Shown piece after piece: positions 933-45,571 of a stretch of DNA of 49,557 bases. A program made the translations under genes and the position numbers. The notes below the pieces were generated by a model, which saw only the letters and a program-made list of their open reading frames with translations, was not told where the DNA came from and ran no database searches. The stretch's first letter is position 1; every line of letters begins with the position of its first letter. This stretch comes from Bacteroidota bacterium (GTDB lineage Bacteria > Bacteroidota > Bacteroidia > Palsa-948): contig PLUL01000040.1 of assembly GCA_003164895.1 (NCBI GenBank), forward strand, positions 1 to 49,557, written 5' to 3'.

Positions 933-3900
933 GTGAAAGGATTTAAACATTCTTTTTTTGTTTCTGTATCTATGCTGTTCATCACATTGGTGTGGGCGAG
1001 CAGTTCTAAAATTATATCCTTGCCTGCGCCAAAATCTTTTTCTTCTTCAAGTTCTAATCCTTTAGCAAAAGCAGCTGACCCATCTTTAAATTCGGAAAAG
1101 GTTAGCAATCCTGCCGAACCACCATATTTAAATTCAGAGCCACAAATAATACCACTTGCCGGAGATACACCTATTCCGATGAAATATCCCATGAAGGATG
1201 AATCTACCGGGATGCCTTCGCTGAACGATTACAAGGGCGGACTTTATCTGAAAGAGCCTTCCAACATAAAAACAAATATTACTTACAATACTGATTCAAA
1301 CACATATGACATTACTCAAAAAATGGGAGGTCTTGATTATCGTCCGCCCATTTACATGACTCAGGAAGAATACATGGATTACATGTTCAAAAAATCTTTG
1401 CAGGATTATTGGCATGAGCGAGGTACGGCAGAAGCGATGACTCAGAAGAAAAATAAAGCCAACCTAATTCCTCCTATAAAAATTAACAATGAATATTTCG
1501 ATAGAATTTTTGGAAGCAACGTAATTGATATTCGTCCGCAAGGTTCTGCGGAATTAATTTTTGGCGTGAACTCATCGCATACGGATAATCCCGCTATTCC
1601 TGTTAAACAAAGACGGATTACCACCTTTGATTTTAACGAAAAGATTCAGCTAAGTTTGACTGGAAAAATTGGCGACAAGATGAAAATTACCGCCAACTAC
1701 AACACCGAAGCAACATTTGATTTTGAGAACAAAATGAAATTAGAATGGTCGGGTGGAGAAGATGACATCATTAAAAAAATTGAAGCCGGGAACGTTAGCT
1801 TTCCTCTCAATAGCACACTCATCACCGGCAGCCAAAGTTTATTCGGAATAAAAACACAATTGCAATTTGGAAAACTTACGGTTACGTCGGTTGTTTCACA
1901 GGACAAGGGGCAGAAAAAAGAAATTAATATTCAAAACGGAGCGCAGACAAATCAATTTTCTATCACCGGAGATAATTACGAATCAAACAAAAACTTTTTC
2001 CTCTCGCAATATTTTAAGAACAGATATGATTCGGCGCTTTCGCATATTCCGGTAATAGAATCGGGAGTCAGCATTACACGAGTGGAAGTATGGATTACTA
2101 ACACAACTTCCAATACAAACAACACAAGAAATATTCTTGCCCTGTCTGATATTGGTGAAGATAGTTTAGCGTGGTTTACAAACATCAGCCACTGGATTCA
2201 CCCAAATGCAAACAACGGCCTTCCGAATAATCCGGCAAACAATCTTAATCCCGCAACATTGGTTACCGGTGCCGATACCGCTCTTAGAAACAGAGATAAA
2301 GCGATTGGAATTCTTATCGCCCCTCCGTTAAATCTCCGTCAGGTGCAGGATTTTGAAAAAGTTCTTTCCGCGAGAATGTTATCTCCGAGCGAATTTACTT
2401 TCAATCCAAAACTCGGATTTGTTTCTCTCAACACAAATATAAATCCGGATCAAGTGGTAGCTGCCGCATACCAATATACCCACGAAGGAGTAACGTATCA
2501 GGTAGGAGAATTTTCTTCTGATGGAATTGCCGACCCAAAATGTTTGCTGGTAAAAATGTTGAAGAGCACCAACGTGGATCCAAGGAGAGATAAACTTCTT
2601 TGGGATTTGATGATGAAAAACGTTTATTCCATGGGGGCGTATCAAATAAAGCCGGATAATTTCAGATTGGATATTTTTTATAATAATCCCGCAACAGGAA
2701 CCGATGTACCGATTATTCCCGAAACAGGATTAAAAACTACAGGCAAACCGCTTTTGCAAGTGATGGGGCTTGATCACATCAATACTTCTGGAGATCCAAA
2801 TCCTGATGGTATTTTTGATTTCATTGATGGCGTAACCATTAATGCCGCTACCGGAAGAGTTTATTTTCCAGTGCGCGAACCATTTGGAAATCATTTGAGA
2901 GCAGAAATAAATCCGCCGCCCGGCTCTGCAAATCTTAATGTTACAGCTAACAAATATGTTTTTCAGCAACTCTATGATTCTACAAAATATTCGGCGCAGC
3001 AGATTCCAAGTTTGAATCGTTTCAAGATGAAAGGAAGTTTCACATCTACTGTTGGTTCGGAAATTTCTCTTAATGCTCCAAACATTCCGGCTGGTTCTGT
3101 TGTAGTAACTGCCGGCGGAGTTCCGCTGGTGGAAAATGTGGATTACACGGTTGACTATGCGCTTGGGAAGGTAAAAATTATTAATCAGGGAATTATGATG
3201 TCGGGCACTCCGATAAAAATTACTTTCGAGAGTAATGTTCTTTTTGGTATTCAGCAAAAAACACTTTTGGGAACACGCTTGGATTATCGCGTAAACAAAG
3301 ATTTTAATTTGGGAGCTACCGCCATGAATCTGAACGAACGCCCGCTTACTCAAAAAGTAAACATTGGCGATGAACCGATAGACAACACCATTCTTGGTTT
3401 GGATGGAAATTACCGAAGTGAAGTTCCTTTTCTTACGCGCATGCTTGACAAGCTCCCGTTTTATTCTACAAAAACCATGTCAACCATTACTGCCTCTGGA
3501 GAAGGAGCATATCTTATACCGGGTGTATCTCGCGCAATCGGAAAAAGCGGAACTTCTTACATAGATGATTTTGAAGGCAGCCAAACTCCGATAGATATTA
3601 AAGCCGTTGGAGCGTGGTCAATGGCAAGCACACCTCAGGGCGGAAATCCTCTTTGGCCCGAAGGGGCGCGAACCGATACTGTTTATGGATTCAATCGTGC
3701 GCGACTTGCCTGGTACACGATTGACCCGATGTTCCAGCTCCAAACTAACGGACTTACTCCCGGGTATTATTCAAAAGCACAGATGTCGGATAATTTTTCG
3801 CGCCAGATTTTAGAAACAGAAATTTTTCCGAAGAAAGAATCTCCCACTGGTCAGCCGGTTCCGCTTCAAACACTTGACCTCGCTTTTTATCCTACGGAAC

Positions 3901-6900
3901 GAGGTATGTATAATTACGATGCAACCGGAGTTCCCGGTATTTCTGAAGGAACAAATCCAGATGGCAGCTTAAAGAACAATTCGTTACATCGATGGGGTGG
4001 AATTATGCGTCCTTTAGCAACAACCGATTTTGAAGCGGCAAACGTTACCTATGTACAATTTTGGGTGATGGATCCGTTCAACCCAGATCTTACCGTTCCG
4101 GCTAATCCCAATAATGGACTTTTGCCAACATCCGGAGAACTTGTTGTTCAGCTGGGAAATGTTTCAGAAGATGTTTTGCGTGATGGACAGAAAAGTTTTG
4201 AAAATGGTTTGCCTACTTCGCCTTCTGACATAACTCATCCAACAGTAAATACTTCGTGGGGAAAAATTCCAACCATTCAGGCAATTGTAAATGCGTTTGA
4301 TAATGATATTACCACGCGCGCAGCACAGGATGTTGGTCTTGACGGATTGAGCAGTGCAGACGAAGTGAATTACTTTACAAAATTTCTAAATACCCCAACT
4401 ATTTCAGGGTTGAGCGCGGCAGCACATGCAGCTATTATTGCCGATCCATCATCTGACGATTATCATTATTACAGAGGTGATGATTATGATGCGGCATCAC
4501 TTGGCACATTGGAACGATATAAAAAATTTAATGGGGTGGAGGGCAATTCCCCGGTGAGTTCGGGTGCTTATCCAACTTCTTCCACCACACTACCCAGCAC
4601 CGAAGATATTAACCACGATAATAACCTTAGCGAGAACGAAGCATATTATCAGTACACAGTAAAAATTTCTAAAACTGATTTTACTCCACAAAATGTTGGC
4701 AACAATTATATTACCGATGTAGTTGCCGGAGGCGGAACAACGCTTAACAACACACAGGTTTCTGCCAACTGGTACCAGTTGAAAATTCCTGTGGAAGAAT
4801 TTGAAAGTAAGTTTGGAAACATAGCGGATTTTACATCCATTCGTTTTATCCGATTATTGCTGCGTGGATTTAGCAGTCCGGTTGTTCTCCGCATAGCGCA
4901 CATGGATCTTATACGAGGTGAATGGAGAAAATATCAATATGATCTTGCGAGCGACGGAGAATATCCTGGAACTGATAACACTGGAACTTCTTTCGATGTT
5001 ACGGCTGTAAATTATCAGGAGAACGGAACAGAAGCTCCGGTGGATTATGTTCTTCCTCCGGGAATTACACAGCAGTTAAGTTATGGAACCGCAACGCCAG
5101 TTCATCTTAACGAACAATCAATTTCGCTAAAGATGTGCAACTTGCAGGATGGTGATGCAAGAGCGGCATACAAGACGATTAATTTTGATTTGCGTTCATA
5201 CAAAAATTTGAATATGTTTATTCATGCGCACGCACAAACCGGAGGTACACCTTTGCGCAGCGGGGATCTTACTTGCTTTGTTCGGCTTGGAAGCGATTTT
5301 ACACAAAATTATTATGAATATGAAATTCCAATGCAAGTTACTCCTGCCGGTTCGTATGATAACAACAGCAATTCCGATCAGGGAAAGGTTTGGATTCCGG
5401 CAAATAATATGGATCTTGAGTTTTCGGTTTTGGAGCAATTAAAATTAACCCGCGACAAAGCAATGAACGGAGGAGGGGCTACTCTTACTAAACGATACTC
5501 AACAACAATTACAGATCCCGAAGGATATACAAGAACTATTTATGTGGTTGGAAATCCAACCATAAGTGCGCTAAAAACTATTATGATAGGTGTAAGAAAT
5601 CCGAAAAAAACTCCCGGAAGTTCCGATGATGGCTTGGCAAAATGCGCTGAAGTGTGGGTAGATGAATTACGTGTAACCAATTTTATTGAAAAAGCGGGCG
5701 GTGCAAGTGTTGCACATGTTTCTGCAAAACTTGCAGACTTGGGAACGCTCACGTTAGCCGGAAATCTTAGCACGCCGGGTTGGGGAGGACTTGAACAAAC
5801 GGTTGGACAGAGACAGCGTTCCACAAATTATGGATTTGATATTTCTTCTCAAATATTACTAAGCAAATTTTTGCCAGCGAGTTGGGGAATAAGTTTGCCC
5901 ATGTATATTGGATATTCCAACTCAATAATAAGACCCGAATATAATCCGTATGATCCGGATATACTTCTTTCTTCCATATTAAAAGACCCGACTTTGGCTC
6001 AGCACTATCGGGATTCTCTGAAAGCAGTAACGCTTGATAAAACTACGCGTAAGAGCATCAACTTTACAAATGTTAAAAAAGAACGACCAAAAAACTCTAA
6101 GCGAAATAATATTTATGACATAGAAAATTTCACCTTCAATTTTTCTTATACTGGATTTCACAATCAGAGTTCTCAGGTTCAATACAACAACATGAAGGAT
6201 TACCGGGCAGGTATTATTTATGGATATTCCACTACTCCGAAAAATATTCAGCCGTTCAAGAGTGTACAATTGTTTAACAAAAAAGCATTCGCCCTTATAA
6301 AAGATTTTAATTTCTATCCGTATCCAAACAAATTTGCATTCCTGATGAGTTTGGATCGGCACTATGCCGAACAACTTCAGCGCAATACAACAGGATTGGA
6401 TTTTCCGATGCAGGTGTTTTACGACAAACACTTCAACATGGTTCGGAGTTATGATTTGAAATATGATTTAACAAAATCCATTAAAATGGATTTTCATGCC
6501 GATAATAATAGTCGCATCCTTGAACCCTACGGAGCAATTGATACGAAAGAGAAAAGAGACACGATTACAAAAAATATTCTTCAAGGCGGGCTCAATACCA
6601 TGTATGCGCAACACGCAAAAATTGATTATGCTATTCCGTTTAGTAAAATCCCGCTCACAGATTGGATAACCGCCAATGTCGGTTACACAACAAATTATAA
6701 TTGGACACGCGCTTTGTTCAGCGCGGATTCACTTGGTAATTCGATTACAAATGGAAATCAAAAAACCTTGAACGCTCAGGCAAACCTCGTTACCCTTTAC
6801 AACAAAATCCCTTTTCTGAAAAAAGTAAATAAAGGAATTCAAAAAACACCTCCGCCAAAAAAAGCGCCCAAACCTACCGGACCAGTGGACGCAAATTCTG

Positions 6901-14709: not shown

Positions 14710-15636
14710 ATGACCAAAGAGAATTTCATACAATATCTTTTTCATCCCGAAAATCTAAATGGACAGAGCATTACTTCGCTTGAAAAATTAGTTCAGGAAT
14801 ATCCGTATTTCCAGATTGGAAGAATGCTTTATCTGAAAAATCTGCATAATGAAAACAGCATTGATTACGAAAAAAATCTTCACATCACTTCGGCGTATGC
14901 TCCGAGCGGAAAAGTGCTATATAATTTGATAAAGAAAAAACCAATTCAGAAGTTAGAAGCTAGAAGTGAGAAGTTAGAATTAATTTCAGAAACACCGAAC
15001 ACCAAACAACAAACCACAAGCGAAATTCTCCCGAAGTTAGAACCTATTGCTATTCTTCAAGAAATACCGATGATAGTTAATGAAGAAATTCCGGTTTCGC
15101 CAATTGTAATAAAGGATGTTCCCGATGAAATGCAGGTACTGGAAAAACAAATGCTGCGAGAAGCATACCGAACTTCGATGACAATTGATTTGCTGGAAGA
15201 AAATCAAGAATCAAGAATCAAGAATCAGGAAACTATCCGCCAGAAACCAGAAGATAGAAGCCAGAATCATTCCTTTAATGTTTGGCTGAAAGTTATTAGC
15301 GGAAAAACTCCAACACCAACAAAAGAAGAAAAAATCGTTCAGCAAAAAGCAAAATCTGAGATTATTGACAACTTCATTCTCGAAGAAACAGCTAAAGCAA
15401 TTCCAAAACCAAAAGCAGAATTTTATTCTGCCGAAGCGATGGCGAAAAAGAGTATTCAGGATGACGAAACCTTTGTTACCGAAACGCTTGCCAAGATATA
15501 TTTAAAGCAGGGAAACCTCCCGAAAGCCCTCCGTTCTTACGAAATTTTAGTTGTGAAGTATCCCGAAAAAATTCATATCTTCGCTCCCCTTTTAGAGAAG
15601 ATAAAAAATCTTCTGAAGGAACAAAAGAGCAAATAA
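14710..15636 (+). CDS. TPR-like protein of the lptE-secG locus
   Basis: This 308-residue protein has no assigned function. The N-terminal 75 residues form a conserved-looking helical domain (SLEKLVQEYPYFQIGRMLYL), and the C-terminus (about 235-305) contains a TPR-like pair of helices (AKIYLKQGNLPKALRSYEIL). Between them (about residues 80-187) lies low-complexity sequence encoded by short DNA repeats, giving peptides such as KLEARSEKLE and NQESRIKNQE. It starts 3 nt after lptE and is followed by secG, the arrangement usual in the phylum. No signal peptide is seen, so it is probably cytoplasmic. Confidence 0.75.
   Translation: MTKENFIQYLFHPENLNGQSITSLEKLVQEYPYFQIGRMLYLKNLHNENSIDYEKNLHITSAYAPSGKVLYNLIKKKPIQKLEARSEKLELISETPNTKQQTTSEILPKLEPIAILQEIPMIVNEEIPVSPIVIKDVPDEMQVLEKQMLREAYRTSMTIDLLEENQESRIKNQETIRQKPEDRSQNHSFNVWLKVISGKTPTPTKEEKIVQQKAKSEIIDNFILEETAKAIPKPKAEFYSAEAMAKKSIQDDETFVTETLAKIYLKQGNLPKALRSYEILVVKYPEKIHIFAPLLEKIKNLLKEQKSK
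14948..15270 (+). repeat. Short dispersed repeats embedded in a coding sequence
   Basis: Near-repetitive runs of AGAAGTTAGAAG type (14948-14979) and AATCAAGAATCAAGAATC type (15202-15229), plus CAGAAACCAGAAGATAG (15241-15257), lie in frame within the TPR-like gene. They encode charged low-complexity peptide between two better-conserved ends. Confidence 0.6.
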
Positions 15637-16489: not shown

Positions 16490-18151
<1,662 letters not shown>

Positions 18152-18177: not shown

Positions 18178-18212
18178 AAACCCTCTCCAACTTTTTGGAG
18201 GGGGTTTCTTGT
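18178..18212 (+). terminator. Rho-independent terminator of groESL
   Basis: CCCTCTCCAA pairs with TTGGAGGGGG (one G-T wobble) around a short CTTTT loop. The stem is extended by flanking A and T runs and followed by TTTCTTGTTTT. The stem-loop begins 27 nt after the groEL stop. Confidence 0.85.
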
Positions 18213-18304
18213 TTTATGCTTCCTTATATATAAGCAGAACACTGCCATTAATGTCAGAAGCATCTTGAAGTTGAATTTTTGAGAAAAAAGGAGGGTTTTT
18301 GCCG

Positions 18305-18577
18305 ATGTTAACCATCAGTGTAGCAAAAGGAGTTCCTTTTTCCTCAAAAGTGTTTCCTTTTACTCCAAAAGGAGTTCTTTTTAATACAGAAGTGTTTCCT
18401 TTTTCTTCAAAAGGAGTTCCTTTTACCCCAAAAGTATTTCCTTTTACTCCAAAAGGAGTTCCTTTTATCACAAAAGTGTTTCCTTTTACCTCAAAAGGAG
18501 TTCCTTTTGTTCTAAAACCATTTGGTTTTGCTCCAAAAGCAGTTGCTTTTGTGTTGGAAGAAGAGAAATTACCCTAA
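18305..18577 (+). CDS. Possible 7-residue-repeat peptide (doubtful)
   Basis: If translated, this 90-residue product begins MLTISVAKGVPF and consists of about eleven heptads alternating KGVPFxx and KVFPFxx, ending EEEKLP. A purine-rich AAGGAGGG lies upstream of the ATG. Against it: the DNA palindrome alone explains the open frame, the opposite strand is equally open, and there is no known domain. Paired changes keep the palindrome (KGVPF, KPFGF and KAVAF units), which suggests selection or copying acts on DNA or RNA structure rather than on the peptide. I keep the entry so the reader knows the frame exists. Confidence 0.25.
   Translation: MLTISVAKGVPFSSKVFPFTPKGVLFNTEVFPFSSKGVPFTPKVFPFTPKGVPFITKVFPFTSKGVPFVLKPFGFAPKAVAFVLEEEKLP
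18325..18555. repeat. Array of eleven 21-bp palindromic repeats
   Basis: Eleven contiguous 21-nt units each carry a 16-nt core and a 5-nt spacer. Odd units have the core AAAAGGAGTTCCTTTT (7-nt arms around a 2-nt centre); units 2, 4, 6 and 8 have a degraded AAAAGTGTTTCCTTTT core, giving a 42-bp super-period. Units 10 (AAAACCATTTGGTTTT) and 11 (AAAAGCAGTTGCTTTT) have different arm sequences but are again perfect palindromes, so both arms changed together. No spacer diversity of CRISPR type is present. Confidence 0.85.
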
Positions 18578-18984: not shown

Positions 18985-21585
18985 TTACAACTTTCCCGCC
19001 ACCACGCAGGTTTTTTTGTATTTCTTAACTTTTCCTTTAGTATCAAATGCTTCAAACCAAACAATGTAAATCCCAATGTGAGCTTTTTCTTTTTCATCGG
19101 TAATGCCATCCCAAAAAAATGTTCCGGATGAGGCAAGCAGTTCGTTGCGCACCAATGTTTTTGTCAGTCTTCCGCGCGAGTCGTAAATATTTACATCGCC
19201 CACCATGCCGGGCGTGTCAAAAGAATAATTAATGCTGAGCACATCGTTGTAGCCGTCATTGTCGGGAGAAAAAACTTCGGGAGAAACCGTTACTTCTGTT
19301 CCTTCTTCACCATTGGTGTACTGCGAATTTTTATAAGCAGGCGTTGCACCGCCCACACTTTCAGCAGCGGAATGCCAGTTGCTTGCATCTTGCGTGGGAT
19401 GGTCGTAGTTAATTCGCTCCAAAGAAATTCCTTTTGTATCGGTAAGCAAAGGCAAATGCCAGGAAGAATAGTAATGCAGTTTGTCAATCACAGTTTGCGA
19501 AGTGTTTACAAGCAGCACATAATCGCTGTCGTTATTCAGCGATGGAGTGGAAGGCATATCAATAAATCCTTCCGCGTTCGGAGTGTTGTACTGCGATTTA
19601 ATCGCGCTGCCATCGGTACTCAGAATAATATATTTCTGCGGAAGAATTAAATATCCACCCGGAGCAACCTGATTTATATAATTCAGATTTCCAAAATTAT
19701 CCTGTGAGCAGAAATAAATTTCCGTCAGGTCAATTACTTTTTCCGAGCGATTATAAATTTCAATCCACTCCACGCCATTTACTTTCGGGTCAAACATTAC
19801 TTCGTTGATGACAATATCATTTGCTGAAGCGGGCTGAGCAATTGCAAACTGTCCGGTGTTGCCCGATGCGATTAAATTTCCTGCGCAATCTTTCGCACCA
19901 CTCACAGTTACAGTATAAATTATTCCTGAAGTAATCGGAGAGTTTAACGTGAGCAACACACTTGTGTAATCTGGTCCAACAGGATCTGCAAGAATAGGAT
20001 TCCCTATTCCGTTATCAATTGTATAAGAAGAAATGTTCATCAGAGTTGTGCTGTCCATATATTCATCAAAAAAAAGCTGAACGATTGTTGGAGAAATCAC
20101 AGCGGTATGAGAAATTTTTGGCGGAATGTTATCGGGATTAGAACCGCAAACAGAATTTTTTCTTCCCGGAGTTCCACCTGAATTATTTGCCGATGCTTTC
20201 CAGTTTGCTTTCCCTGAACAGGAACCGTTCGCATCAATTTGTTCCAACGACCAGCCGCCATTTTGTTTTATCGGGTCGTTGTACCAGGTAGCATTGTATG
20301 AAACCGAATTAATAATATTTTCCAGATCATTGCGAAGAATAAGATTGTCTCCTGTATTTGACAATGTATAAACAGAAGTGAAAAGCCCGATGGTTGGTCC
20401 ATACGATTGAAATAAATTCGCTGCTGAATCTTTGCAAAGAATTAAAAAACTATCAGGCAAAAGAATAATGTTTGGAAATATTTTTATGGTTGAGCTGGTG
20501 GAGAAAGTCCAATTATTCAAATTAACCGGATAATGAGTGCGGTTAAATAATTCCACATACTCATAATCAGGAAGCCCGACCACCGGATCTGGATCTGCCA
20601 TGATTTCGTTTATCACCACATCGTTTGCCGCAGGAGAAAAATAAAAAAATGTTTTTGTAGCATTTAACGTGTTGTTCCCTGCGAGATCCTGAACACCCGT
20701 TGCTGTGAGCGTGTAATATTGTTTGCTCACAAAATTATTGCCTAAGGTAAGATGTACAAGCTCGGGATTAATTGTATCCTGAACAGCAGCAGAGGCAAAA
20801 CCAATTCCGTTGTTCACAGAATAATTCGCAATCGTTTGCGCAGAAATTGTACTCAGCGCTTCGCTGAAATATGCATCCAGCTGATTGTGAGAAATTATTT
20901 TCACCGAATCAAGAGAAGCAGGAGTAACATCCGGTGGAGCATAAATATAAAAATCATCAAAGAAAAATTGTGTTGCATTGGTGGTTGTGTATTTGCAAAA
21001 CACGCCAAAGAAATTTGTATTGGAAAAAGTATTATCCGTTCCGCTTGCTTCCTGAGAATAATTTGTTCCGCCAGTCGGGTCAACAAATAGTTTCCACAAA
21101 CCAAAATTATCTCTCGTAACTTTTACGCGGAGGGAAAATGCATTCGCGATATTTGTTGTTCCGCGACAAACCGAAAAGGAAGTAGAACCCGATTGCAAAA
21201 ATAATTCCACCTGATCATTCGAACCATTTTCTCCGAACTGCAAATAGTAACCATTAAGAGTTCCAGAAATATTTTGTTGATTGGAAACCAAATACACACG
21301 TGCATAATTGCTGGATGATGGAGAAAAATTCAGATGAATCCCAAAACTCCATTCGCAATTATTCAGAGGCTGAGTATTCGTCAACGCAAGATAACTCGCA
21401 CCTGTTCCCGATGAATTCAGTTGCAACTGATGATTTGCATTCACAATAAAATCTGTGTCGTTACCGTTCCACGCAGGATTGGATGTAAAATTTCCATCCG
21501 AGAAATCATCCGTTATTTGTGAAAAAGCAAAAGTGGAAAACAGAACAAGAACGAATGAGAGATAATATGTAATTTTCAACCTCAT
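18985..21585 (-). CDS. Exported protein with two lamin-tail domains and a C-terminal FlgD-Ig/CHU_C-like domain
   Basis: This is a predicted secreted or surface protein of 866 residues. I chose the ATG at 21585 because it gives a clean signal peptide (MRLKITYYLSFVLVLFSTFAFSQ region). The longer frame to 21651 would overlap the divergent gene's start. After a LamG-like beta-sandwich (about 25-215) come Ig-like repeats (SVKIISHNQLDAYFSEAL; TAVISPTIVQLFFDEYMD) alternating with two lamin-tail domains (NDVVINEIMADPDP; NDIVINEVMFDPKVNGVEW). The C-terminal 90 residues (SPEVFSPDNDGYNDVLSI ... FFWDG ... GIYIVWFEAF) are of the gliding-motility-associated/FlgD-Ig type used as a T9SS signal. No enzymatic motif is seen; an adhesive or structural role is inferred. 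Confidence 0.82.
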   Translation of the reverse strand: MRLKITYYLSFVLVLFSTFAFSQITDDFSDGNFTSNPAWNGNDTDFIVNANHQLQLNSSGTGASYLALTNTQPLNNCEWSFGIHLNFSPSSSNYARVYLVSNQQNISGTLNGYYLQFGENGSNDQVELFLQSGSTSFSVCRGTTNIANAFSLRVKVTRDNFGLWKLFVDPTGGTNYSQEASGTDNTFSNTNFFGVFCKYTTTNATQFFFDDFYIYAPPDVTPASLDSVKIISHNQLDAYFSEALSTISAQTIANYSVNNGIGFASAAVQDTINPELVHLTLGNNFVSKQYYTLTATGVQDLAGNNTLNATKTFFYFSPAANDVVINEIMADPDPVVGLPDYEYVELFNRTHYPVNLNNWTFSTSSTIKIFPNIILLPDSFLILCKDSAANLFQSYGPTIGLFTSVYTLSNTGDNLILRNDLENIINSVSYNATWYNDPIKQNGGWSLEQIDANGSCSGKANWKASANNSGGTPGRKNSVCGSNPDNIPPKISHTAVISPTIVQLFFDEYMDSTTLMNISSYTIDNGIGNPILADPVGPDYTSVLLTLNSPITSGIIYTVTVSGAKDCAGNLIASGNTGQFAIAQPASANDIVINEVMFDPKVNGVEWIEIYNRSEKVIDLTEIYFCSQDNFGNLNYINQVAPGGYLILPQKYIILSTDGSAIKSQYNTPNAEGFIDMPSTPSLNNDSDYVLLVNTSQTVIDKLHYYSSWHLPLLTDTKGISLERINYDHPTQDASNWHSAAESVGGATPAYKNSQYTNGEEGTEVTVSPEVFSPDNDGYNDVLSINYSFDTPGMVGDVNIYDSRGRLTKTLVRNELLASSGTFFWDGITDEKEKAHIGIYIVWFEAFDTKGKVKKYKKTCVVAGKL

Positions 21586-21604
21586 TTTTAGAAAGCCGAA
21601 ATTA

Positions 21605-24199
21605 ATGGATTGCAATAAAACAGGTTTGTTTTTTTTAATGATTCTCCTCATGTTTTCTTCTTGGATGAAAGGCGCTGTTGTCTCCGGAAAAATTACAGAT
21701 GAAACAAATCAGCCGCTTCCATTCGTGAGTGTTTACCTTCAGGGAACAACGCAAGGTGTTACATCAAACAAAGAAGGAAATTATTCCATTGATCTTCCGG
21801 TTGGAAATCACGATCTGGTTTTTCAGTTCATCGGATATAAAAAACATGTAGAAATTGTTCATATTGAATCTGCCGAACAAAAAATTATTCTGAATGTAAA
21901 AATGGAACCGCAGCCCTATGAAATTGCAGAAGTAACGGTGAATGCCAATGCCGAAGATCCCGCCTACGAAGTAATGCGCAAAGCGATCAAGATGCGGAAA
22001 TATTATTTGAATCAGGTTCAGTCTTATTCCTGCGATGTGTATATAAAAGGAGTTCAGCGTGTAACGAGTTATCCGAAAAAATTTATGGGCTTTGATGTGA
22101 ATGCCGAAGGTGACATTGATCCCAAGACCGGAATTTTTTATCTATCGGAATCTGTTTCAAAATTTTCTTTCATGCAGCCGGACAAAATTCACGAAGTGAT
22201 GATTTCCTCGAAGGTAAGTGGCAACAGCAAAGCATTTAGCTTCAACCGAACATCCGATTTGCTTTTGAATTTTTACGACAACATTGTAAATATTTTGGTG
22301 ATCAGCAAGCGCGGATTTGTTTCTCCGCTCGCGGAAGGCGCGATGTTTTATTACAAATATCATTTAGCCGGAACTTTTTATGAGAACGGAAAAGCGATAA
22401 ATAAAATTCAGGTTATTCCCAAGCGGGAGAACGATCCGGTTTTTCGGGGATACATTTACATCACCGATAATACTTGGCGAATTCACAGCACCGACCTGTA
22501 TCTTGTGAAAGATGCGGGTATGCAGTTTCTCGATACGCTTCGCATCAATCAGGTTCATCTTCCTGTACAAAACGCCAGCGCATCTTCGGCTGATGATATT
22601 TGGATGTTGTTCTCCAACAAGCTCAGTTTCAGTTTTTCTATTTTAAGTTTCAAAGGAAGCGGAATGTATCTGAGCATTCATTCCAAGTACAATGTGAAGC
22701 AGGATTTTTCGGTGACGAATCCGTTGCCGCAACCCATCGCAACACAAACGGTTGCTCCAATTCCGGCAAAAGTTGTGATGAAGCAGAAAAAGAAAGAAAA
22801 AAAGGAAGAGAAAAAACTTTTCTCGCCTGAAATAATGAAGGTGAATGATGATGCGAATAAAAAAGATTCTGTTTATTGGGAAACGATTCGTCCCGTGCAG
22901 CTTACTTCGGAAGAGACGCGCGACTACAAAAAGAAAGACAGCATTCAGGTGATTCACGAATCGAAAATATTTAAAGATTCGATAGATAAAAAAACCAACA
23001 AGTTTAAGCCAATGAATCTGCTGCTTGGATATTCTTACGACCAGCGTTATAAAAAGCGAACCATTTCTTTTTCTCCGTTGATACAAAACTTTCAGTTCAA
23101 TACGGTGCAGGGGTTGGTTTTGGCAGAAGAAGTGGAGGTGGAAAAAAAATATGAATCAGAAAAAAGTTTACGCACAAGCGTTTCAGCAGACTACGGTTTT
23201 TCTGATAAGCAATTAGGTCTTGTCGGGAAATTGCGCTATGAATATGATCCGAAAAAATTTGCAAACATCGGCATTGAGGGTGGAAGACAAGCGGTTCAGT
23301 TCAACGAAAATAATCCTATTTCTCCGCTTGTAAATTCAATTTATACGCTGGTGGAAAAAGAAAATTACGAAAAACTTTATCAGAAAACTTATGTCGAAGT
23401 TTTTCATAATTCCGAATTGACGAACGGTTTGTATCTGAGAACTTCGCTTCAATATGCCGACCGCGACCCGCTGATGAACAACACGAATTATACTTTCTTC
23501 CCAGATAAATTTCAAAACAAAACTTTTACTTCCAACGATCCGCTTCACCCCGCGCAAGACAGCGTGGGATCTTTTTCGCGAAATCAAACGCTGGAGTTCA
23601 GAGCAAACCTCCGCATTCGCTTCGCGCAGAAATATGTTACACGACCGGATGAAAAATGGGTGTACGGCTCCAAATATCCAACCTTGCGTATCGAATACCG
23701 GAAAGGAATAAATAATTTGCTCGGCTCAAATGTGGATTATGATTTTCTGAAGTTTAGCATAAGCGACAAAATAAAAATGGGATTGCTCGGTCGCGCCAGT
23801 TATCTTATTTCGGCAGGAACTTTTTTGAACACAAACAAAATGCAGTTCATGGATTACTACCATTTTTCGGGCAATCAAACTATTTTTTCCAATTTTGCTT
23901 TTTCGGATTTTCAACTGCTGAATTATTATGCGTACAGCACCAACGCAAGTTTTATCGAAGCGCATTACGAGCACGACTTCGGCGGATTCATCCTGAATAA
24001 ATTCCCGTTGCTGAGAAAATTAAAAGTGAACGAACTGGCAGGCGTTCATTATTTATATGCCGAAAAGCTGCCGAATTATTTTGAAGTGTTTGTGGGAATT
24101 GAAAAACTCCGCATGGCGCGATTTGATTTTGTAACTTCTTTCACCGACAAAGGAAGACAAGCGGTTGGTTTCAGATTGGGATTGGAGATTGGGCGGTAG
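21605..24199 (+). CDS. DUF5686/carboxypeptidase-regulatory-like outer-membrane protein
   Basis: This is a predicted outer-membrane protein of 864 residues. A signal peptide (about 1-23, ending in MKGA) leads into a CarboxypepD_reg-like beta-sandwich (about 24-110; VVSGKITDETNQPLPFVSVY, GNYSIDLPVGNHDLVFQFIGY), then a long beta-rich region that matches my memory of the DUF5686 family. A Lys/Glu-rich linker (about 395-415) is followed by a barrel-like C-terminal half. It resembles the plug-plus-barrel layout of TonB-linked proteins, but no TonB box or full TonB-receptor plug is visible. It is divergent, by 19 nt, from the lamin-tail gene, so the two may share regulation. Confidence 0.75.
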   Translation: MDCNKTGLFFLMILLMFSSWMKGAVVSGKITDETNQPLPFVSVYLQGTTQGVTSNKEGNYSIDLPVGNHDLVFQFIGYKKHVEIVHIESAEQKIILNVKMEPQPYEIAEVTVNANAEDPAYEVMRKAIKMRKYYLNQVQSYSCDVYIKGVQRVTSYPKKFMGFDVNAEGDIDPKTGIFYLSESVSKFSFMQPDKIHEVMISSKVSGNSKAFSFNRTSDLLLNFYDNIVNILVISKRGFVSPLAEGAMFYYKYHLAGTFYENGKAINKIQVIPKRENDPVFRGYIYITDNTWRIHSTDLYLVKDAGMQFLDTLRINQVHLPVQNASASSADDIWMLFSNKLSFSFSILSFKGSGMYLSIHSKYNVKQDFSVTNPLPQPIATQTVAPIPAKVVMKQKKKEKKEEKKLFSPEIMKVNDDANKKDSVYWETIRPVQLTSEETRDYKKKDSIQVIHESKIFKDSIDKKTNKFKPMNLLLGYSYDQRYKKRTISFSPLIQNFQFNTVQGLVLAEEVEVEKKYESEKSLRTSVSADYGFSDKQLGLVGKLRYEYDPKKFANIGIEGGRQAVQFNENNPISPLVNSIYTLVEKENYEKLYQKTYVEVFHNSELTNGLYLRTSLQYADRDPLMNNTNYTFFPDKFQNKTFTSNDPLHPAQDSVGSFSRNQTLEFRANLRIRFAQKYVTRPDEKWVYGSKYPTLRIEYRKGINNLLGSNVDYDFLKFSISDKIKMGLLGRASYLISAGTFLNTNKMQFMDYYHFSGNQTIFSNFAFSDFQLLNYYAYSTNASFIEAHYEHDFGGFILNKFPLLRKLKVNELAGVHYLYAEKLPNYFEVFVGIEKLRMARFDFVTSFTDKGRQAVGFRLGLEIGR

Positions 24200-44875: not shown

Positions 44876-45502
44876 ATGGGTAACACCCTAAAAACAATCA
44901 TCAGGCACATTCTTGTTGTGCTTTTGTTTCCGAAAAAAATTAACGATTTCATCACTTATGCCAAGGGCATTTTCAAGGCGATGAACGGAAACACAAATTT
45001 TCCCGATTCGGCAGCAAAAGTAGCTGTGCTGAAAACGGACATTGACACGCTCGATTCCACCGAATCGGGATTGTTAACCAATCCGCCCACGACAACCGTG
45101 GAGGCACGCAATGCGGCAATGGAAAAAGTGAAAGCAGATCTGCGCGGTTTACGAAACGATGTGCAAGTAGTAACAGATGCAACTCCCGCACAGGCAGAAG
45201 TGCTTGCAAAAAGCGCAGGCATGAATGTGAAACAAGTTAGCGTTCAGCAAAAAAGGATCAACGATGCAAAATCCGGAGATGTATCGGGTAGCGTTATTCT
45301 TACTGCCGACGGAGGCGGACCTCACGAATGGCAGATGAGCAAAGACCAGGTAACTATTATAAACCTGCCGGCTACCAGCGGTGCAAAAACTACAGTTTCC
45401 AATTTAACACCCGGTGAAATATGGTACTTCCGCAACCGCCCAATCCTTACACAAGGAGTAGAAGGCGACTGGTGCGGATGGATTAAAGTGGTAGTGAAAT
45501 AA
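44876..45502 (+). CDS. Small protein with C-terminal FN3-like strand segment
   Basis: This 208-residue protein has no firmly assigned function. I choose ATG at 44876 over a GTG at 44864. The N-terminus has a short hydrophobic/basic stretch (IIRHILVVLLFPKKINDFI), then a helical region (about 40-125) with heptad-like spacing, and a C-terminal beta region whose end (TTVSNLTPGEIWYFRNRP) looks like the closing strands of a fibronectin type III fold. No signal peptide cleavage site is evident. The gene has its own strong terminator. Codon use is less AT-rich than that of neighbouring genes. Confidence 0.65.
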   Translation: MGNTLKTIIRHILVVLLFPKKINDFITYAKGIFKAMNGNTNFPDSAAKVAVLKTDIDTLDSTESGLLTNPPTTTVEARNAAMEKVKADLRGLRNDVQVVTDATPAQAEVLAKSAGMNVKQVSVQQKRINDAKSGDVSGSVILTADGGGPHEWQMSKDQVTIINLPATSGAKTTVSNLTPGEIWYFRNRPILTQGVEGDWCGWIKVVVK

Positions 45503-45533
45503 ACAGAATTCAAGAATTAGCACCGAGAATAAA

Positions 45534-45571
45534 GGATTCGGGAGGTAAAACTTCCGAATCCTTTTTCTTTT
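45534..45571 (+). terminator. Rho-independent terminator after the FN3-like gene
   Basis: GGATTCGGGAG pairs with CTTCCGAATCC (one wobble) around a GTAAAA loop, followed by TTTTTCTTTT. It begins 31 nt after the stop codon at 45502. Confidence 0.88.

Follow-up and report, generated by a model that had tools for sequence, protein, structure and literature searches.

Eleven abutting units of exactly 21 nt each tile positions 18325-18555 of the window (the whole 49,557-nt stretch of Bacteroidota DNA that was analysed), and we read them, at about even confidence, as a non-coding minisatellite, belonging to a class of 21-bp arrays that is spread through the genome. As in other minisatellites, the units are arranged head to tail and fall within the usual size range (about 10-100 bp), lie in non-coding DNA and show higher-order duplication. 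Bacterial minisatellites are usually viewed as accidents of single loci, with unit lengths that vary from case to case. The arrays described here belong with them, and their fixed 21-bp step is an unusual and testable regularity: in several lineages of one phylum, many arrays per genome have the same step and the same mirror symmetry with no common sequence. The features of the region are listed below.

16517..18151, plus strand: groEL (Cpn60), a neighbour only (PF00118, E 2.5e-78)
18178..18207, plus strand: terminator-like hairpin belonging to groEL, located upstream of the array; groEL of the congeners is followed by a comparable one
18214..18471, minus strand: open frame KGTPF../KGNTF.. with a GTG start, judged not to be a gene (synonymous fraction 0.10)
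18299..18577, plus strand: open frame KGVPF.. with a TTG start, which spans the array and was judged not to be a gene (synonymous fraction 0.08)
18325..18555, no strand: the array, in which units of consensus AAAAGGAGTTCCTTTT, each with a 5-nt linker, alternate with AAAAGTGTTTCCTTTT units (periods 21/42/84; p 0.003 for dyad symmetry)
18325..18340, no strand: typical palindromic core AAAAGGA-GT-TCCTTTT; an identical core occurs again at 18409, 18451 and 18493
18346..18361, no strand: typical degraded alternate core AAAAGTGTTTCCTTTT; variants at 18388, 18430 and 18472
18514..18529, no strand: paired-change unit AAAACCATTTGGTTTT with CCA/TGG arms
18535..18550, no strand: paired-change unit AAAAGCAGTTGCTTTT with GCA/TGC arms

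The sequence-only reading had described eleven such units behind groEL, most with 7-nt arms around a 2-nt centre and with degraded palindromes in alternation, and this layout was confirmed. Perfect 7+7 palindromes with a 2-nt centre make up six of the eleven (units 1, 5, 7, 9, 10 and 11) and unit 3 contains a single G.T, while units 2, 4, 6 and 8 are degraded. Since perfect and degraded units alternate, the 42-bp super-period is real; it was recovered by unit reading, by TRF (periods of 21, 42 and 84 with 71, 80 and 86% matches, respectively) and by self-match, which is 0.70, 0.80 and 0.84 at shifts of 21, 42 and 84 and about 0.5 at shifts of 20, 22, 41 and 43. The rise in self-match from 21 to 84, where a further period is found, shows that the array grew by nested duplication.

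The unit equals seven codons and both strands are open, as had been noted from the sequence, which is easier with a unit length divisible by three. A repetitive heptad peptide gene of KGVPF or KGTPF type would agree with this and with the K-x-x-x-F heptads that can be read in several arrays, yet it is hardly credible in view of how the codons vary. Of the single-base codon differences in the KGVPF frame, only 8% are synonymous, and third codon positions are the least variable (0.13 versus 0.32 and 0.22), whereas 44-45% are synonymous in two 21-bp repeats that lie in coding DNA of this genome and served as controls; the third such control, taken from a different genome (L105), gave only 0.13, so that the synonymous test is good and not infallible. 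Neither open frame had a match above cut-off in Pfam or NCBIfam, many other arrays contain stops in every frame, and some have undergone register slips of 1 nt. Synonymous-biased codon evolution, named beforehand as the observation that would speak against a structural array, is absent from the open frames.

Dyad symmetry of the array amounts to 0.80 compared with 0.54 under a column-permutation null (p 0.003, which is the floor of a test with 300 permutations). The same property was evaluated in 19 arrays that had been found by autocorrelation or by accident, not through a palindrome-like search pattern, and that include the window array and its sister on contig C12 (see below). In 13 of them p lies below 0.05 against the permutation null, and the combined Fisher value of 7e-14 overstates the certainty because some arrays are related and their edges were set by eye. 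The mean complementarity of 27 arrays lies at about 0.5-0.76 for arm distances and at chance level for both centres, as for loops; several arrays (C71, C48 and C19:2261) display little or no dyad symmetry. The recurrence of symmetry in unrelated 21-bp arrays, in this and other genomes, upholds the earlier proposal of a structural or copying process at the DNA level rather than a gene. The further-reaching claim of paired changes in the arms depends on two units: those at 18514 and 18535 do carry such changes, but the statistic for the window array is borderline (70 of 87 arm cells paired versus 67.0 expected after within-column shuffling, p 0.048) and the C12 sister array gave none (64 of 95 versus 67.4 expected, p 0.99). 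The latter array has a left arm that changed with the right arm unchanged (AAACCTGTTTCCTTTT), and the alteration of its unit AAACCT..CCTTTT in one arm, taken with that of the window unit AAAACCA..TGGTTTT in both, is the order expected of arm-to-arm correction.

Elsewhere in the genome the unit of the window array recurs once (C12:147131-147361), in an array with a nested period of 84 bp, and the homology between the two ends at the array edges so that the repeat is common to both sites and the flanks are not. Three unlinked sites (C7, C9 and C19) carry a second family, built of a 42-bp unit, again with homology ending at the array edges; this family was not found in any congener and is confined to this species. 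When 1.07 Mb of this genome were surveyed by autocorrelation, without bias and over periods 8 to 60, periods 21 and 42 stood far above the rest with 15 and 16 regions, respectively, the next highest period having 8 regions, one count per period stemming from the N-only contig C4. Only two or three arrays were found per family; by eye, the arrays of one genome have no common consensus, there were no cross-family blastn matches, and the families compared have no common leader, tail or terminal repeats. In the window, a 390-bp stretch at 45180-45566 is 78% identical to DNA adjoining the C7 array (L155:18114-18500, inverted) and represents a dispersed element or a paralogous gene. A dispersed repeat of ~75 bp (..GATTACTCCGATTTCCG..GATTACACCGATG) at L018:2750-2825, in C71 after murQ, is also present at several further positions of the sampled genome, and CTCTGTGTTCTCTGCGG repeats directly adjoin the array of L103 (G003). 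Unlike the other array pairs compared, those of C48 (L019:3100-3320) and C71 (L018) have an apparent common downstream stretch, identified by eye (GGTTTGTTCTTAT.., AAAAGAAGATAAAAAGTATATTTGTTG).

Similar arrays occur in other Bacteroidota. A generic pattern search had matches in 11 of 395 genomes of the class, a lower bound since only units with AAA and TTT arms could match. Scanning 84,980 species with an exact pattern returned seven stretches, among which the real arrays are all from Bacteroidota and include that of the isolate Sphingobacterium gobiense, where the array is degenerate; stretches in Thermodesulfobacterium and Desulfobacula consist of two units each and were set aside as chance. 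A single match in IMG/VR falls inside a lysine-rich coding repeat. In samples of five array-bearing Bacteroidota genomes, which were chosen by pattern match and in which all periods were then counted, 48 of the 61 non-coding tandem repeats (those whose midpoint is not covered by a stop-free frame of 180 codons) have a period of 21, 42, 63 or 84 bp: 33 at 21, 13 at 42 and two at 63 or 84, against 13 at any other period. Density reaches about one array per 7 kb, with six non-coding tandem repeats in 40 kb of G272 and fourteen in 160 kb of G296. No such array was seen in 200 kb of a sixth genome from the Bacteroidota (G113), and none at period 21 in 50 kb of E. coli. The unit sequences vary among arrays (TACGGGGAATCGCTCCCATTA, CATTATTCCTATTGGGATAAT, CTATTCTTTGGTTAAAGAACG, ACCGCCCACTGAGTGGTCGAG) and the families are species-private, while the units tend to dyad symmetry.

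The link of the window array with groEL is incidental. No array is found behind groEL in any of the five congeners checked, in which groEL is intact and on a contig and its hairpin is kept; one of them, G004, has a GroEL that is 99% identical, yet no array. A groEL-linked regulatory element was rejected on these grounds, and the minisatellite account would give the array no special role for groEL. Likewise, another array (C71, after murQ) is absent in the four congeners whose downstream region was read. On the other side of the window array, the minus strand of 18985-21651 encodes a large secreted protein that has lamin-tail and Ig-like domains and, below threshold, a C-terminal domain of type IX secretion.

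According to the minisatellite account, slippage or unequal exchange in single-stranded DNA during replication would have produced tandem copies of a short near-palindrome. Growth was by nested duplication from 21 to 42 to 84 bp, as the nested periods of the window array (21/42/84) and of its C12 sister (84) show. The 7-nt arms may then fold back so that one templates the other (quasipalindrome correction); such templating would renew the symmetry and give paired arm changes, with no selection at the locus needed. Against the account, covariation within arrays is borderline in the window and absent in C12, several arrays have little or no dyad symmetry, and arrays are in excess in divergent intergenic regions (see below). 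The strict 21-bp step in arrays of unrelated sequence is left unexplained by the minisatellite account, by a common consensus and by helical phasing. Neutral slippage should predict a spread of periods, and the 48 of 61 repeats at 21, 42, 63 or 84 bp count against it. It is possible, if doubtful, that certain Bacteroidota have a dedicated process with a 21-bp ruler, which repeatedly makes and extends dyad-symmetric intergenic arrays from unrelated sequences; tentative candidates for it are an enzyme, an intermediate of replication and a coating protein. Should a coating protein or a copying machine lie behind the step, bacterial genome architecture would follow a rule that is new; should the step be purely mutational, the arrays would be a natural record of hairpin-templated copying in replication.

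The main rival to the minisatellite account is a coating or binding protein, in line with the multi-site protein-binding array proposed from the sequence. One dimer would bind each palindrome and the 21-bp step, equal to two helical turns, would place the dimers on one DNA face for cooperative coating; nucleoid organisation and divergent promoter control are examples of purposes that it might serve. The strict step and the dyad symmetry over unrelated arrays agree with this, as does location: the 36 array-bearing intergenic regions, with genes defined by crude calls as ORFs of 100 codons, comprise 18 divergent, 12 tandem and 6 convergent ones, whereas intergenic bases overall are 27% divergent, 59% tandem and 14% convergent (p 0.004 for the divergent excess). 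Arrays are thus found preferentially between transcription units, a hint that they have a role or that transcribed DNA is avoided. The protein reading is nonetheless rather unlikely, being weakened by the absent consensus: a single sequence-specific protein cannot serve arrays that have no common sequence within one genome, and unlike in operators and iterons no sequence consensus is common to the sites of the genome. In addition, array loci are not conserved between congeners, and helical phasing is not the main pattern, the mean share of A/T-content periodicity being 0.07-0.12 at 10.5 bp and 0.21-0.25 at 7 bp. Intrinsically curved DNA with phased A-tracts was rejected for the same reason, the 10.5-bp harmonic not being dominant in this test of periodicity rather than of modelled curvature. 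A base-7 slippage origin was also considered and dropped: ten loose 7-bp regions were found versus 0-1 at neighbouring periods, and one was left after a stricter non-coding filter. The window has two short 7-bp tandem repeats (14948-14979 and 15202-15231), inside the coding frame 14710-15636.

A mobile minisatellite, copied to new sites by a transposase in the manner of MITEs or REP/RAYT, is unlikely. It would account for one family residing at unlinked sites with unrelated flanks, but the families compared lack common ends and number two or three arrays each in this genome, and the Y1/RAYT transposase (PF01797) had no match in this genome (G000, 100% complete) or in G296 with its 14 arrays in 160 kb. 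A RAYT-driven REP element was for this reason rejected as a general cause, and a phage or plasmid origin was rejected with no blastn match. Hairpin-rich RNA, which had also been suggested, or a bank of weak bidirectional terminators is very improbable as a general role. Both strands of the array do fold better than shuffled versions of them (z -6.0 and -4.6), two terminator-like matches lie inside it, and its mismatches are 5 G.T versus 0 A.C, numbers that are too few; good folding, however, is expected of any dyad-symmetric array, and over 35 arrays the mismatches are 93 G.T versus 98 A.C. This lack of wobble preference indicates the DNA rather than the RNA level and, together with the divergent intergenic bias (half of the array-bearing regions), makes RNA hairpins unlikely. 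Besides, groEL already has a terminator-like hairpin upstream of the array, and no Rfam family came near its gathering score for the array.

Several described systems resemble these arrays in part. REP, BIME and REPIN elements, associated with RAYT transposases, are intergenic, palindromic and present in many copies per genome. The present arrays are likewise intergenic, palindromic and numerous, but they differ from these elements by the missing Y1 transposase in this genome and G296 and by having no consensus common to arrays. Plasmid iterons and helically phased operator arrays are direct repeats about two helical turns apart, a spacing that is also seen here; the present arrays differ in being chromosomal and many per genome, with no common consensus and no plasmid match. 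The closest described case is BrickBuilt of Porphyromonas gingivalis, a 23-nt minisatellite in a MITE with leader and tail subunits and inverted-repeat ends (PMC4596501). Both occur in Bacteroidota as abutting tandem units of similar length dispersed in many copies per genome, whereas the present arrays have a 21-bp unit, no common leader or tail, and sequences that vary by array. The VNTR loci of Flavobacterium psychrophilum, another member of the Bacteroidota, are also mainly intergenic tandem repeats, but with units mostly of 7-8 bp (PMC4501049) as compared to 21 bp with dyad symmetry here; that 21 is 3 x 7 and that the arrays have a 7-bp harmonic is only a lead with respect to those units. 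A report on archaeal Borg elements (PMC9879509) describes pervasive, fast-evolving and independently arising tandem repeats, traits that the present arrays share; the Borg repeats differ in replicon and host, and the fixed 21-bp step and the dyad symmetry are features of the present arrays. No described class of 21-bp dyad-symmetric arrays was found in a literature search outside which most subscription papers lay.

Finally, two further sets of arrays were noted. Four genomes of genus g20 (G068, G103, G135 and G270) contain 21-bp arrays with differing units, making this genus a good group in which to compare array birth and loss. In an uncultured Bacteroidetes contig (L082, CAIWCG010000072.1), about 33 degenerate 21-bp units occur at 3117-3830, the halves of which seem mirrored around about 3440-3470 so that the whole array looks like an inverted repeat, and a second, nearly perfect array (GAAACGTTACCGTTTGAGGTC) is located at 5763-5975.
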